Position numbers and translations under genes: made by a program | Shown: in pieces, positions 9,242 through 64,000 of the stretch | Layout: each line of letters starts with the position of its first letter | How positions within the stretch are numbered: position 1 is the stretch's first letter | The notes under the pieces: generated by a model | Told to the model about the DNA's origin: nothing | Seen by the model: only the letters and a program-made list of their open reading frames with translations | Databases searched by the model: none | Origin: Tubulanus polymorphus | Lineage: Eukaryota > Nemertea > Palaeonemertea > Tubulaniformes > Tubulanidae | Reading direction: 5' to 3' | Assembly: GCF_964204645.1 (NCBI RefSeq) | Contig: NC_134032.1 | Coordinates: 2,010,916 to 2,074,915, forward strand | DNA length: 64,000 nt

Positions 9242-12200
9242 ATGAGTTTATCATTGAGGTAGGTTTTAAATTTTATTCCATACTTTTGTACACATTTTAG
9301 AGATAATTTTGGATCTTTTTAAGACGCTACTTTCACTCGAAATGCTCTTTAAATTCAATTCAATTCAATACAAAGTAGTATTTTGTTTAATGAATCGAAG
9401 TAATCATACTTAATCCCGGGTTCGAAAATTGAACCTAAATAAAGCTAAATAGAAGCATGTGTGCATTAATTATGTGTCATTTTTACCCCTCGCGCTTAAA
9501 CTCATCCTCGCTTGCCAGGGTTCAGCGGGCGGCAATCAACAAAACACTGACTGGAAAGCGAGGATGCTCAAACACCAAATTTGAAAATAGTGGACCAAAC
9601 TAATTTAGTCAGTTACTGGACTAGGTTTAGTCAGTAACTAGACTATGATTTAGTCAGTAACTAGACTATGATTTAGATAGTAACCGAACTGATTTAGTCA
9701 GTAACTAGACTATGATTTAGCCAGTAACCAAACTGATTTAGTCAGTAACTAGACTATGATTTAGTCAGTAACCGAACTGATTTAGTCAGTAACTAGACTA
9801 TGATTTAGCCAGTAACCGAACTGATTTAGTCAGTAACTAGACTATGATTTAGCCAGTAACCGAACTGATTTAGTCAGTAACTAGACTATAATTTAGCCAG
9901 TAACCGAACTGATTTAGTCAGTAACTAGACTATAATTTAGCCAGTAACCGAACTGATTTAGTCAGTAACTAGACTATAATTTAGCCAGTAACCGAACTGA
10001 TTTAGCCAGTAACTAGACTATAATTTAGTCAGTAACCAAACTGATTTAGTCAATAACTGGACTATGATTTAGCCAGTAACCAAACTGATTTAGCCAGTTA
10101 CTGGACTATGATTAAGCCAGTAACCGAACTGATTTAGTCAGTAACTAGACTATGATTTAGTCAGTAACTAGACTATGATTTAGCCAGTAACCGAACTGAT
10201 TTAGTCAGTAACTAGACTATAATTTAGCCAGTAACCGAACTGATTTAGTCAGTAACTAGACTATAATTTAGCCAGTAACCGAACTGATTTAGTCAGTAAC
10301 TAGACTATAATTTAGCCAGTAACCGAACTGATTTAGTCAGTAACTAGACTATAATTTAGCCAGTAACCGAACTGATTTAGCCAGTAACTAGACTATAATT
10401 TAGTCAGTAACCAAACTGATTTAGTCAATACCTGGACTATGATTCTATTTTGTTGTTTCAGGACTGATTTCGCGTTTGAGAAAGCTAAACGAAAAAAGCG
10501 TCGTGAATTAAGTGATGAACAAAAAGAGGAAATAAAAGAAGCTTTTGAATTGTTTGATACGGATAAAGATAAAGCCATTGATTACCACGAATTAAAGGTA
10601 AAGTTTATTTTCACAGTCCCCTCTCTCACTGCCTCTCACTACCTCTCACTACCTCTCTCTCTACCTCTCTCTCTCTCCCTCCCCTCTCTCACTACCTCTC
10701 TTCCTCTTCCTCTCACTACCTCTCTCCCTCTCACTACCTCTATACCTCCTCTGACTACCTCTCTTCCTCGCACTACCTCTCTTCCTCTCACTACCTCTTT
10801 CCCACTCACTACCTCTCCCTCTCATTACCTCTCTCCCTCTCACGACCTCTCTCCCTCCTCCCTCTCACTACCTCTATACCTCCTCTCACTACTCCCTCCT
10901 CTCTACCTACTCCCTCCTCTCACTACCTCTCTACCTCCTCTCACTACTCCCTCCTCTCTACCTACTCCCTCCTCTCTACCTACTCCCTCCTCTCACTACC
11001 TCTCTCCCTCTCACTACCTCTCTCACTACCTCTCTCCCTCCTCCCTCTCACTACCTCTCACTACCTCTATACCTCCTCTCACTACTCCCTCCTCTCTACC
11101 TACTCCCTCCTCTCTACCTACTCCCTCCTCTCACTACCTCTCTCCCTCTCACTACCTCTCTCACTACCTCTCTCCCTCCTCCCTCTCACTACCTCTCACT
11201 ACCTCTATACCTCCTCTCACTACTCCCTCCTCTCTACCTACTCCCTCCTCTCACTACCTCTCTCACTACCTCTATACCTCCTCTCACTACTCCCTCCTCT
11301 CTACCTACTCCCTCCTCTCTACCTACTCCCTCCTCTCACTACCTCTCTACCTCCTCTCACTACCTCTCTCCCTCTCACTACCTCTCTCACTACCTCTCTC
11401 CCTCCTCCCTCTCACTACCTCTCACTACCTCTATACCTCCTCTCACTACTCCCTCCTCTCTACCTACTCCCTCCTCTCTACCTACTCCCTCCTCTCTACC
11501 TACTCCCTCCTCTCACTACCTCTCTACCTCCTCCCTCTCACTACCTCTATACCTCCTCTCACTACTCCCTCCTCTCTACCTACTCCCTCCTCTCTACCTA
11601 CTCCCTCCTCTCTACCTACTCCCTCCTCTCTACCTACTCCCTCCTCTCACTACCTCTCTCCCTCTCACTACCTCTCTCCCTCCTCCCTCTCACTACCTCT
11701 ATACCTCCTCTCACTACTCCCTCCTCTCTACCTACTCCCTCCTCTCACTACCTCTCTCACTACCTCTATACCTCCTCTCACTACTCCCTCCTCTCTACCT
11801 ACTCCCTCCTCTCTACCTACTCCCTCCTCTCACTACCTCTCTCCCTCTCACTACCTCTCTCACTACCTCTCTCCCTCCTCCCTCTTACTACCTCTCACTA
11901 CCTCTATACCTCCTCTCACTACTCCCTCCTCTCTACCTACTCCCTCCTCTCACTACCTCTCTACCTCCTCCCTCTTACTCCCTCCTCTCACTACCTCTCT
12001 ACCTCCTCTCACTACTCCCTCCTCTCTACCTACTCCCTCCTCTCACTACCTCTCTCACTACCTCTCTCCCTCTCACTACCTCTCTCACTACCTCTCTCCC
12101 TCCTCCCTCTCACTACCTCTCTCACTACCTCTCTCCCTCTCACTACCTCTCTCACTACCTCTCTCCCTCCTCCCTCTCACTACCTCTCACTACCTCTATA

Positions 12201-13259
12201 CCTCCTCTCACTACTCCCTCCTCTCTACCTACTCCCTCCTCTCTACCTACTCCCTCCTCTCTACCTACTCCCTCCTCTCACTACCTCTCTACCTCCTCTC
12301 TACCTACTCCCTCCTCTCACTACCTCTCTACCTCCTCTCACTACTCCCTCCTCTCTACCTACTCCCTCCTCTCTACCTACTCCCTCCTCTCTACCTACTC
12401 CCTCCTCTCACTACCTCTCTACCTCCTCCCTCTCACTCCCTCCTCTCACTACCTCTCTCCCTCTCATAGAAGATCCCCGTTCTATCCGTTTATATAAACT
12501 GATATTATGAATTTTGTCTCATTCCTTGATGACGGTGTTTGTCGAAAAACCGAAAATTTGGATTTTAAGATAACTGTAAACCTTTCAATATTATTTCAAC
12601 TCGGGATCTCGCGACGGAAGCTCCACCTATATTCGGCATTGGAACCGTATTAACTGTGTTTTTTAAGTCAATGATCGGAACGTATTTTACGTTTGACACT
12701 ATAGGTGGCGATGCGAGCGCTGGGTTTCGACGTGAAGAAAGCGGACGTGTTGAAAGTGATGAAAGATTACGATCGAGAAAATACCGGCCGGATTCACTTT
12801 GATGATTTCAACGAATTCAGTGAGTAGAATAAATAGTGAATGTTATATCATTTCCGAGAATCTTATGGTAACAGTTGGATTTGGGGCGGGGGGGGGGTTA
12901 GATTGAGACTAGTGGACTAGTAGGTAAGTTATTTTTTTTTGCTCCACTGTGACTGTCTGGTGGGCGGAGCTGTAGGGGAGGGGGTGATGAGTTGTCCTCT
13001 GTCCATCATCAACGTTTATTTGTATCGCATTTTTCTCGGTAAATGTCATGGGTCTACGTTCACAAAAAAACTTGCTGTATGGAGTTCACCTTGGTAACCC
13101 ATTGTTGGCTGTCGGATAATTTTTCAATAGGACTACCGCTAGCGCCACCAGGTGGCGTTTTGTAAAAATTTGTGTCTTACAGGCTGGTGGTTGTGTCCCG
13201 CGGGACTTGTCTCTAAATATGAGTTAATCTCTCTCTCCCTCTCTCTCCTCCCTCTCTCT

Positions 13260-25475: not shown

Positions 25476-58099
<32,624 letters not shown>

Positions 58100-58106
<7 letters not shown>

Positions 58107-58875
58107 CAGACTCTGATGTGACTGGCTCGCTCCGGTAGCAGACTCTCTGATGTGACAACTACTGGCTCGCTCCGGTAGTGGACTCTCTGCTGTGACAACT
58201 ACTGGCTCGCTCCGGTAGCTGACTCTCTGATGTGGCAACTACTGGTGCGCTCCGGGAGCCGGCTCTGATTTGACAACTACTGGCTCGCTCCGGTAGTGGA
58301 CTCTCTGATGTGACAACTACTGGCTCGCTCCGGTAGAGGACTCTCTGATTCGACAACTACTGGCTCGCTCCGGTGCAGTGGACTCTCTGATGTGACAACT
58401 ACTGGCTCGCTCCGGTAGCGGGCTCTGATGTGACAACTACTGGCTCGCTCCGGTAGCGGGCTCTGATGTGACAACTACTGGCTCGCTCCGGTAGCCGGCT
58501 CTGATGTGACAACTACTTGCTCGCTCCGGTAGCGTCTCTGATGTGACAACTACTGGCGCGCTCCGGTAGCGTCTCTGATGTGACAACTACTGGCTCGCTC
58601 CGGTAGAGGACTCTCTGATTTGACAACTACTGGCTCGCTCCGGTAGTGGACTCTCTGATGTGACAACTACTGGCTCGCTCCGGTAGCGGGCTCTGATGTG
58701 ACAACTACTGGCTCGCTCCGGTAGCGGGCTCTGATGTGACAACTACTGGCTCGCTCCGGTAGCCGGCTCTGATGTGACAACTACTGGCTCGCTCCGGTAG
58801 CGTCTCTGATGTGACAACTACTGGCGCGCTCCGGTAGCGTCTCTGATGTGACAACTTCTGGTTCGCTCCGGTAGC
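58100..58875. repeat. Minisatellite starting at the carboxypeptidase stop codon
   Basis: About 20 copies of a unit of about 36-42 bp built on GATGTGACAACTACTGGCTC and GCTCCGGTAG plus a variable spacer. The first unit, CGTAGCAGACTCTGATGTGA, includes the TAG stop at 58104-58106; later units have the matching GGTAGCAGACTCTCTGATG. It would form the start of the 3' UTR. The open frames on the minus strand are products of the repetition. Confidence 0.88.
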
Positions 58876-59456: not shown

Positions 59457-59794
59457 CATCCTCCCCCGGCAGGGATTCGAACCTGATGGCATCGAAATTG
59501 CCACGGCACGAAACCCTGCCATAATCGACCGTGTGCGCAATACATGCGCAGTTCAGATGATGTGATTTTTAGCCAATCAGAAATCACGTTTTATTTTAGC
59601 CCGGGTTTTCCCATTTATAGTTCTTCCTTGAAATTTGCCTCAACGATTATACAACGAGCAATCTGATTGGTGCCGCCAGTTTTCGTTCGGAAAGCTGCGC
59701 ATGTACCTGCGCACCCGGTCTACTGATGCAGGGGTTCGTGCCGTGGCTGAGTGTAGCGATGCCATCAGGTTCGAGTCCCTGCAGAGGGAGGATG
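59457..59794. mobile_element. Foldback element with tRNA-like arms, copy 2
   Basis: A 338-bp copy in opposite orientation to 28547-28887. The left arm is CATCCTCCCCCGGCAGGGAT and the right arm ends CCCTGCAGAGGGAGGATG. It is flanked by an 8-bp duplication, CGAATTCT (59449-59456 and 59795-59802). Central CAATCAGA and CTGATTGG motifs are retained. Intergenic, between the carboxypeptidase and astacin genes. The stretch 58876-59456 shows no gene. Confidence 0.8.
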
Positions 59795-60883: not shown

Positions 60884-63571
60884 ATGTCGTCGATTTTAGG
60901 CGCCTTGGTTTTCGTCAGTCTCTGCGCCTCAACCTACCAGGTAAGTTATCCGCGATCAGAATCGCAACTTTTACTAGAATCGTTAATAATCACATCGGAA
61001 ATGTTTCGGAGGAAAATGTGCTGAATACACGAAAGAAAGAATATTTCCACCAAAAGTATTGGAAGTCATACTACCAACGGAATTGCCGGCTAGTCCAGTA
61101 TCTAGCCATTGTTCGTCAGGGTAACCCGTACGTCGTGCGGTATTCAGACTACAATCTTGGCATGAACAGCATCTGACAGTAAAAAAGGCTTTCAGTCTAT
61201 CAGTAAATGGCGGCATCACCAGTAGCGTACTGAAAAACTTTAAATATTACTGGTAATTTATGAAATTATTTAAGTCAAACACGGTGCTGGTCGATTTGAG
61301 GTCCTCGGCAATCGGTTCAATTTCGATTCTCGACTGATATTCTAGTGGGATCCTGATGGTGCGCAAAAACTTTGGAAGGATTCAACGATCGAGTACTTGG
61401 CTACCGATTTCTGTGAGTCACATTATTTATTTAAAAAATTTTTTTACAAAAAAACGCCGGTATTTCTGAGTAGATTTCCTGCATACTGATTCCATAAATT
61501 AAATTCGTAGAATTCATTCAGTTGAAGTTATAGTTTACATGTTTCCGTCATGTTCTTATACCTATGGAAAAGGGAAATCATTTCAAAGCCTTGTATTCTA
61601 ATGGAAATTAGAACGTCGGTAATCGTGATCTCATTTAATCGTTGTAATGCAAAATAAAAGGATCGTCATTTAGTAGCCGATATTAGGTTACACCAAAACC
61701 TGGGACACGGTTAACCGGAATCCGGCGTGCTAAAAATGCCACAGGTAAAAATACCAGTAGGATATATTTTCTACACACACTTAGGCAAACCTGGATGAAA
61801 TTAAAAAGTGAATCCATAATTTATAGAAAAGTCAGGCACATGGAAGAAGTGGATTAACATTGGACGCATGATATTACTATTCGCCCTAGATGGTCATTAG
61901 ATACAAACTTTTTTTTGAATACCGTTGGATTGAAAAAAAATTGATGGAAAGTTTAGATATGATATATACATTTCTAGATCGAAGAAATTTTTGAATGATT
62001 TATTCCCTCTCAAATAGCAAGACAAGACCCCCTTTTCGCATTAGGGTGCCCTTCGTGATTACTTTAGTGCACTTGCGATTACTTTTGTGCCCTCCCTGCC
62101 ATACCCTGGTCCCCCTTGCAGAAATCCTGGCTCCTGGCCAAATATCAAATCAACATCTAAGTGAATAGTTTACGATCGAAGATTGAGACGAGGTAGTTTG
62201 TTGTATGGGGATATAGTGCAAATTTCCTTGAGGCATTTTTACATCTGGTACTTAAACACCCTTGGCATTTTCAATACCGGCGTTATTACCAGTGGCATTT
62301 TACCCCTGGTGCCGTTACAGGATCCTTTCTTAACGTGGCCGAATCAGCCACCATTGATTCGGACCACATCTATAGTATAACACTTCAATATCCACCGATC
62401 TTTTATTTAACATTTTTAACTTAAAACAATATTCTAAGTACAACTGTATGTCGAACTCTCCGTATTGTCATACGCTCAATAGGTTTGGGTTACCCTAGGC
62501 TTTGAAATCACCAGCTAAATTCACAATTTCGTTCAATCACCGAATACGGTTTTTGTTTCTCAATCTTTTCAATAAACCTGTCTACAGCTGCAGAAGAATT
62601 AAAGAATCTGACGGAACGTTTGCGAACTTTCTCCAAATTGATCGGAGCGAATTGTCTTAAATTCATTCCGCAAAATGAGAATCCTGAACTCCGAACGAAC
62701 GGAGGGAAATCCATCGACTTTAGAAGAAGGTTAGTATACTTTAATCTGCTAGTCTGCGTAATACTATCGATGCGCCATCCTCCCTCTGCAGGCACTCGAA
62801 CCTGATGGCATCGCTACACTCAGCCACGGCACGAACCCCTGCATCAGTAGACCGGGTGCGCAGGTACATGCGCAGCTTTCCGAACGAAAACTGGCGGCAC
62901 CAATCAGATTGCTCGTTGTATAATCGTTGAGGCAAATTTCAAGGAAGAACTATAAATGGGAAAATCCGGGCTAAAATAAAACGGGATTTCTGATTGGCTA
63001 AAAATCACATCATCTGAACTGCGCATGTATCTGCGCACACGGTCGATTATGGCAGGGTTTCGTGCCGTGGCAATCTCGATGCCATCAGGTTCGAATCCCT
63101 GCCGGGGGAGGATGTCGATGCGCTTCCACGGTTGTGTGGGCTTACTTTGATAATTCTGGGTCCAGCGGTTTCGCATTCATTTTTACTTAACTTGATTTCG
63201 AGTGCCGTTAAACAGAAGCGTGGGCTTAACTTGATTCTTAAACCAGTTCCAAAGTTGGTAATTGATTTCTATTTTCTTGTAGTGGTGCAGGTTAATCTAG
63301 GTCGTTTAAAAACCAAAATAAATGTTTGGATATCTTTGGCATATTTTCTGTTCTAGCGGAGGCTGTAGGTCATTCTACAGCGGGATGCAGGGCAAGGGTA
63401 CCTATAGGAGAGTTTACCTGGCCGAAACCAACCCGAGATATGGAAAGTGCAATTTATTCACGAACCAGGGCAAATTCAATGTCGCCATGGCAACAAGACT
63501 CGGTTTGATGAGACAGACGAATCGGCCAATCAGAGACGCGTTTCTTAAGATGGCTTTTAAGAAACCATTAT
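60884..63571 (+). CDS. Secreted astacin-family protein lacking all catalytic residues (5' four exons)
   Basis: Astacins (M12A) are secreted zinc endopeptidases. Exons 60884-60940, 61346-61412, 62588-62729 and 63357-63571 join in phase with GT-AG ends; the last donor (GTAAGT at 63572) leads beyond the window. Exon 1 is a signal peptide, MSSILGALVFVSLCASTYQ. Only about nine residues then precede LWKDSTIEY, the usual start of the mature domain (LWPNGTIPY-like), so no propeptide is seen. Family features follow: ATDFSAEELKNLTERLRTFS, a cysteine in ANCLKFIPQ, SGGCRSFYSGMQGKG and YGKCNLF. The zinc-site region reads VAMATRLGLMRQTNRPIRD where the family has HExxHxxGxxHExxRxDRD, so all three His and the Glu are gone, while the Gly and the RPxRD tail align without gaps. 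Inferred role: binding or regulatory pseudoprotease. A further exon between exons 1 and 2 cannot be excluded. Confidence 0.8.
62776..63114. mobile_element. Foldback element with tRNA-like arms, copy 3
   Basis: A 339-bp copy in the same orientation as 28547-28887, flanked by a perfect 9-bp duplication, TCGATGCGC (62767-62775 and 63115-63123). It inserted in intron 3 of the astacin-like gene, 46 bp after the donor at 62730. Confidence 0.82.
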
Positions 63572-63750
63572 GTAAGTCCATTTATATCCCAAGGTGGTGC
63601 CAATAACTCTAAGTCTGTACGATACATATCTAAATAGAACGCTCTTTGGCAGTTGTATATAAAACAATATCACTCCTCACCAGGAAGATATGATTGATAC
63701 ACAATTTCATATACATGGGCCATAAGGGCATTTATCACCTTTTCCTTGGT

Positions 63751-64000
63751 AAACAGAGTTTATTAGAATACTAGCGCAGTGTGTTTGTTTATTTGTTCGT
63801 AGGCAAACATAGTTTATTAGAATACTAGCGCAGTGTGTTTGTTTATTTGTTCGTAGATAAACAGAGTTTATTCGAATACTAGCGCAGTGTGTTTATTTGT
63901 TCCTTGGTAAACAGAGTTTATTAGAATACTAGCGCAGTGTGTTTGTTTATTTGTTCGTAGGTAAACATAGTTTATTAGAATACTAGCGCAGTGTGTTTGT
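63751..64000. repeat. 54-bp tandem repeat running off the right edge
   Basis: Units start at 63751, 63805, 63859, 63909 (one unit is 50 bp) and 63963. The core is AGTTTATTAGAATACTAGCG, then CAGTGTGTTTGTTTATTTGT. In the downstream intron of the astacin-like gene. Confidence 0.88.

Follow-up and report, generated by a model that had tools for sequence, protein, structure and literature searches.

Gene Content of the Locus

The analysed window is a stretch of 64,000 nucleotides (C8:2010916-2074915) from an assembly of 267.8 Mb in 77 contigs, which is taken to be that of an animal on account of its multi-exon genes and receptors of the rhodopsin type. Its right end carries, on the forward strand, the first four of the six exons of a gene for a secreted astacin-like protein, and the last two exons lie just right of the window. 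Open frames of rhodopsin-family receptors, above the Pfam cut-off, are found at 31031-32011 (reverse strand) and 37274-38302 (forward strand). Three copies of a rhodopsin-type receptor gene, set about 2.34 kb apart, stand in tandem at 47610-53361 on the reverse strand; the repeat stretches compared are 94-98% alike, and an in-frame stop near 50420 splits the middle copy into a pair of abutting open frames. An M14 zinc carboxypeptidase exon, also above the Pfam cut-off and presumably of the CCP-type cytosolic carboxypeptidases, is located at 39487-39882 (forward strand). A 1.8 kb low-complexity repeat of the CCTCTCAC type, open in three frames, spans 10620-12466, and the open stretch just upstream of it is taken here to encode a calcium-binding EF-hand protein. 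A minisatellite of about 19 copies of a 38-base unit lies at 58121-58875. An element of 338-339 bases with imperfect terminal inverted repeats occurs twice, at 59457-59794 and 62776-63114, in opposite orientation and with 99% likeness, one copy being upstream of the astacin-like gene and the other in its intron 3; the ends of the element hold GGTTCGAATCC-like strings, which we assume to be of the kind found in the tRNA box B.

At 12 kb to the left of the window (C8:1997799-2001400), a divergent astacin with the intact zinc motif (HETLHATGCWHEQQRTDR) was found, followed downstream by a WSQWGGWSNC-type stretch that we take to be a thrombospondin type-1 repeat. Counted exon by exon over the whole assembly, the Astacin profile has no fewer than 161 matches, and this large repertoire includes tandem clusters, such as those on C4 near 7.03-7.06 Mb and on C8 near 9.63-9.65 Mb.

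Structure of the Gene and Its Protein

The gene opens with the exon 60884-60940, which encodes the signal peptide MSSILGALVFVSLCASTYQ, assigned from its hydrophobic core, and ends in CAG/GT in phase 0. The second exon (61346-61412, ending in phase 1) begins the mature domain with WDPDGAQKLWKDSTIEYLATDF, with neither a propeptide nor a basic activation site ahead of that start. The third (62588-62729, ending in phase 2) comprises the first-helix region and the cysteine aligned to Cys42 of astacin (ANCLKFIP), and the fourth (63357-63571, ending in phase 1) contains the strand with the cysteine aligned to Cys64 (GGCRSFYSG), the one aligned to Cys84 (YGKC) and the pseudo-active site. All of these are on the forward strand. 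The scaffold motifs named in a preliminary description of this DNA were each present, and its claim that the four exons splice cleanly is borne out by the AG/GT borders and the running phases 0, 1, 2, 1; the four junctions of which it spoke are in fact three within the window. It had also expected further exons to the right, and two were found there on the forward strand with unbroken frames: exon 5 at C8:2075526-2075792, 611-877 bases beyond the window end, followed at C8:2076345-2076442 by exon 6, whose stop codon closes the gene.

The resulting protein of 281 residues consists of a 19-residue signal-peptide exon, one astacin-like domain, which reads as astacin from the mature-enzyme start to the last cysteine, and, at the C-terminus, a tail in which two of the 39 residues are cysteines. 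Much of intron 4 is filled by a 54-base minisatellite, running from 63748-64000 onward (C8:2074663-2075525) and reaching exon 5, so that the acceptor of this exon (TTTGTTCGTAG) is the last, cut-off unit of the array. The consensus unit has the same acceptor-like string, and cryptic splicing is therefore possible.

A Family of Five Intact Genes

A search of the own genome with the four-exon protein as a query revealed relatives on C9 (one) and C5 (three), with 48-50% identity over exon 4, and a fifth piece on C5 with 45% identity. The four relatives are intact paralogues, designated C9 (291 aa), C5A (289 aa), C5B (288 aa) and C5D (287 aa), each with six exons in the same phase order; the fifth piece is a decayed fragment, in which exon 4 is shortened and exon 5 is truncated. 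The intact family thus comprises five genes on three contigs, all modelled by eye and script, and none of the five has HExxHxxGxxH. By a scan for upstream hydrophobicity and a donor site, the signal-peptide exons of the paralogues (MISVHVLAAALSLFCIIHQ, MESVHVFAAVLALFCIYQ) were found to be of the same type as exon 1 of the window gene. A further, spare exon of this type is present near C5A. When the C9 protein was used as the query, the own genome returned the same loci, with only two weak matches on C11 besides (E about 1), which were rejected as family members, having stop codons inside and no domain. Among the best candidates scored in these two own-genome protein searches, no active astacin was listed among the matches at E up to 10. 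The search of viral contigs and prokaryote genome contigs gave pattern matches to the family, none of which was confirmed.

Seven cysteines are invariant in the family: four at the places of the two canonical disulfides and three further ones, two of the latter in the C-terminal tail. In the window numbering, C64, C92, C120 and C242 fall at the places of the astacin disulfides 42-198 and 64-84, with C242 placed by eye and the pairing predicted. The mature proteins are basic in all five cases, with pI of 9.1-9.5 compared to 4.5 for crayfish astacin, the single astacin compared.

Relationship to the Astacins

Single-protein searches recognise the family only in part. The C9 protein matches the Pfam Astacin profile over positions 2-188 of 189 at 25.1 bits (E 1.7e-5), above the curated cut-off of 22.5, and C5A reaches 21.0 bits, under that cut-off; C5D gives no match, and two of the five members in all match the profile at E up to 10. 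For the window protein, hmmscan of Pfam gave no family even at E 10, first with four exons and then with all six, and no astacin turned up among solved structures when either the four-exon protein or the family profile served as the query. Compared profile to profile, the five members and a set of seven astacins, five of which are partial domains joined from exons and a sixth a part of a zebrafish enzyme, align at E 6.8e-7 with a probability of 92 and with the zinc-motif region ungapped.

The exon borders were compared by scanning 36 of the genome's astacin loci, two of which repeat others. A scorable exon was present in 28; of the rest, seven had no Cys64 motif within the same open frame and one had no zinc motif. 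In the active astacins, the acceptor stands 1 nt ahead of the Cys64-equivalent codon, in phase 2, in 28 of 28 exons (26 distinct loci), and the acceptor of the family's intron 3 stands in the same phase 7 nt ahead of the equivalent cysteine, two codons farther. The donor at +61 past the third His codon, in phase 1, was observed in 25 of 26 active astacins, and the intron 4 donor of the family is at +61 in the four paralogues, against +58 in the window gene. At the N-terminal end, 20 of 22 rows were judged by eye to be true N-terminal exons, the other two being chance matches, and these 20 have a phase-1 GT 10 to 25 bases past 'PY'; the phase-1 donor of the window gene lies 16 bases past 'EY', the counterpart of the astacin 'PY'. 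Since the C9 match in Pfam, the profile comparison and the exon borders agree, the family is, as judged from these sequence features, homologous to the astacins despite the weak single-protein searches.

Loss of the Active Site and of the Propeptide

In the place of HExxHxxGxxH, the window gene encodes VAMATRLGLMR (63481-63513, forward strand). The replacement had been described as gapless, and this was confirmed by the profile-profile alignment, in which V-A-M-A-T-R-L-G-L-M-R stands against H-E-L-M-H-A-I-G-F-Y-H of crayfish astacin. All four paralogues read SAMFKRLGLMK at that place. In the crayfish numbering, the family therefore shows His92 replaced by Val or Ser, Glu93 by Ala, His96 by Thr or Lys, His102 by Arg or Lys, and Glu103 by Gln. 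The Met-turn SIMHY became NILSH in exon 5 of the window gene and NIMSA in the paralogues, with the zinc-binding Tyr lost and the Met present in four of the five, the register being set by eye next to an adjoining gap of the hhalign alignment. Thus, all four zinc ligands of the window gene are replaced, and likewise the catalytic Glu and the family-specific Glu. The RPxRD tail, described as kept, is retained only in part: the counterpart of ExxRxDRD is QTNRPIRD in all five proteins, in which the two Arg and the last Asp stand, the family-specific Glu is changed to Gln, and Ile takes the place of the Asp that precedes the second Arg. A normal HExxHxxGxxH in a downstream exon was looked for, and neither the window nor the 18 kb that follow on its right contain HExxHxxG. 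The pattern HQxxHxxG matches twice elsewhere in the window, both matches being unrelated and one falling inside the tandem repeat at 58 kb. Each of the 30 astacin loci that score best in the genome carries H[EQ]xxHxxGxxH, and 28 of the 30 fit the stricter pattern including the tail, figures which, being those of the best scorers, are not a measure of how common the loss of the motif is.

The apparent absence of a propeptide, first seen in the window gene, extends to the whole family, where all five gene models splice the signal exon straight onto the mature-domain start (QKLWxD...EY). The five first introns, read in their forward frames, have no xGD[IVLM] pro-motif, and those of C9 and C5A have no phase 0-0 open stretch of at least 25 codons. 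Such stretches are present once in the first intron of the window gene (63 codons), twice in C5B and once in C5D, with no shared sequence; the 63-codon stretch could in principle be spliced in. The active astacins of the genome have, in 20 rows, an Arg-Asn-Ala-like or dibasic activation site just ahead of the mature start, and several have GDI-type pro-segments, such as MEGDI at the locus L052, in one exon with KRSAASNLMKLWRDRVIPYEF, and FEGDI at the locus L029, in a separate exon. In astacins, the family-specific Glu forms a salt bridge with the mature N-terminus, as stated in the accessible part of a review (PMC9848320). Its change to Gln in all five proteins, together with the lost metal site and the lost propeptide, points to losses that go together.

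Selection and Conservation

A codon-model script applied to 252 codons of the five genes gave an omega of 0.317, with omega = 1 rejected at p = 1.6e-18. A dN/dS near 1 with frame breaks had been named beforehand as the mark of a pseudogene; with 0.32 and the remaining exons unbroken, the data argue against one. The C5 branches have an omega of 0.58 (p = 0.0014 for the difference), which indicates a weaker constraint on these three copies, and the window branch has 0.15 (p = 0.0039), a rough value with the silent sites saturated. The best-conserved stretch is formed by residues 129-151 (63475-63543, forward strand), that is, the former active-site helix and the following turn, with 18 of 23 residues invariant in the five proteins compared to 98 of 281 overall. 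The permutation test of this peak gave p = 0.00115 (20,000 permutations), which is somewhat flattering because the length of 23 residues was set after seeing the alignment.

Interpretation and Alternative Explanations

The family joins homology to a peptidase family, loss of the catalytic residues, intact genes and purifying selection, the features by which a pseudopeptidase is recognised. Because four intact sister genes share the losses of the active site and the propeptide, the window gene probably makes a working non-enzyme rather than being a broken gene. The reading that we favour with good, if not full, confidence from the sequence evidence is that it belongs to a small family of secreted pseudo-astacins, basic and permanently mature, which bind a partner through the old cleft. 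Such a protein would enter the ER by its signal peptide, fold straight into its final form with no zymogen stage, and, as predicted from the replaced residues, bind no zinc and cut nothing. It would then serve as an extracellular binding protein, the contact surface being the former active-site helix and cleft, basic instead of metal-bearing, and the partner, as a first guess, an anionic ligand of matrix or mucus, or another secreted protein. The conservation from which the binding role is drawn might also be due to folding. The preliminary description had proposed a binding or dominant-negative function, and this is a plausible proposal. A more specific proposal may be offered tentatively, as one that is possible and would not surprise us if wrong: in an animal lineage, the astacin domain was turned into a zinc-free, permanently mature secreted binder, in which the charge of the metal is taken over by basic residues where the ligands stood (Lys/Lys in four members and Thr/Arg in the window gene), the old active-site helix is a conserved surface for docking an anionic partner, and the losses of the propeptide, the zinc ligands and the Glu that holds the N-terminus form one linked package.

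The main rival to the partner-binding reading is that the dead copies regulate active astacins, by pairing with them or by competing for their substrates or inhibitors as dominant-negative or decoy forms. Candidate partners exist in the repertoire of at least 161 astacin-profile matches, with the zinc motif carried by 30 of the 30 best loci, and dead paralogues regulating active partners are known from the accessible part of the literature (PMC5201418). However, the cleft residues for metal and substrate are gone, the family is isolated, with active astacins absent among the listed matches at E up to 10, and, in the stretches read, the active astacin motif closest to the gene lies about 73 kb away, 12 kb beyond the left end of the window. 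A regulatory role of this kind is accordingly regarded as rather unlikely.

The protein might also have remained an enzyme, by way of a rewired site or of a different chemistry, and the former active-site helix, being the best conserved part, could mark a new active site; that the four zinc-motif positions are without His, Glu, Asp or Cys in all five proteins (V/S, A, T/K, R/K), and that the family is without the zymogen control present in secreted astacins, makes this very improbable. Little can be said for the genes being decaying pseudogenes, old duplicates without an active site and on the way out: one copy of the C5 cluster is indeed a broken fragment and the C5 branches show the omega of 0.58, yet six exons with their splice sites, phases and stop codons are kept in five genes, the overall omega differs strongly from 1, and the active-site losses are common to the family members. 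Being shared by five genes, these losses are most simply older than the duplications, and decay is thus a highly improbable account. That the family is not astacin at all, the likeness of short motifs being due to chance, is scarcely credible: the window protein has no Pfam family even at E 10 and the structure searches gave no astacin, but a paralogue lies above the curated cut-off over the whole profile, and the profile comparison and the matching intron positions and phases concur.

A pseudo-astacin that has shed its zymogen segment as well reveals which parts of the enzyme belong together. Since zymogen latency and the burial of the N-terminus are tied to the astacin active site, the family lends itself naturally to testing what the fold requires after catalysis is lost. 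For a partner, the conserved former cleft is a definite place at which to look.

Comparison with Known Systems

With the astacin family (MEROPS M12A, PF01400; crayfish astacin, BMP1, meprins), the pseudo-astacins share secretion, a two-lobe domain of about 200 residues, the order of motifs, the four cysteines of the two disulfides and, within the same genome, the exon borders; they differ in lacking the zinc motif, the zinc-binding Tyr, the family-specific Glu and the propeptide, and in being basic. The M12A list of MEROPS includes non-peptidase homologues. Pseudopeptidases, inactive metalloproteases included, are a known kind of protein. Several of the S-LAPs of Drosophila sperm are catalytically dead. 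In the literature searched, some of which was accessible in part, no astacin pseudopeptidase family lacking a propeptide was found, nor was the phrase 'inactive astacin', and the word 'inactive' was not found in the accessible passages of the astacin review PMC9848320. In the parts of the reports available, the salmon-louse astacins have the zinc motif in all eight domains (PMC10828956), and no dead astacin was found in PMC1867822 and PMC9382459. For one spider, the accessible part of the source gives the motif and/or the cysteines in only 9 of 12 transcripts (PMC5553785), and motif-less astacin sequences have therefore apparently been seen before.

Inactive proteases in multicopy families are known from elsewhere, as the available passages indicate: the inactive cysteine proteases of the scabies mite likewise form a multicopy family of another fold and another catalytic class (PMC5956821), and the S-LAPs are likewise multicopy, with expansion and functional diversification, and again of another fold and catalytic class (PMC3078892). 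Closer in kind are the pseudopeptidase ADAMs of M12 (ADAM2, ADAM11, ADAM22, ADAM23, UNC-71), in which, according to the accessible part of a review of dead metallopeptidases, the metzincin zinc ligands and the catalytic Glu are replaced in a similar way (PMC11266112). In the same accessible part, this review places most dead metallopeptidases in the M12 (ADAM) and M14 families and mentions astacin once, within a list of metzincins (PMC11266112). The ADAMs differ in being multidomain membrane proteins with a prodomain, whereas the dead domain of the pseudo-astacin stands nearly alone and without a prodomain. Some pseudopeptidase ADAMs use the surface of their dead domain for partner binding, as the accessible passages describe (PMC11266112), and such dead metzincin domains, binding by their surface, may, by analogy, be the nearest working model for the pseudo-astacins of this genome.
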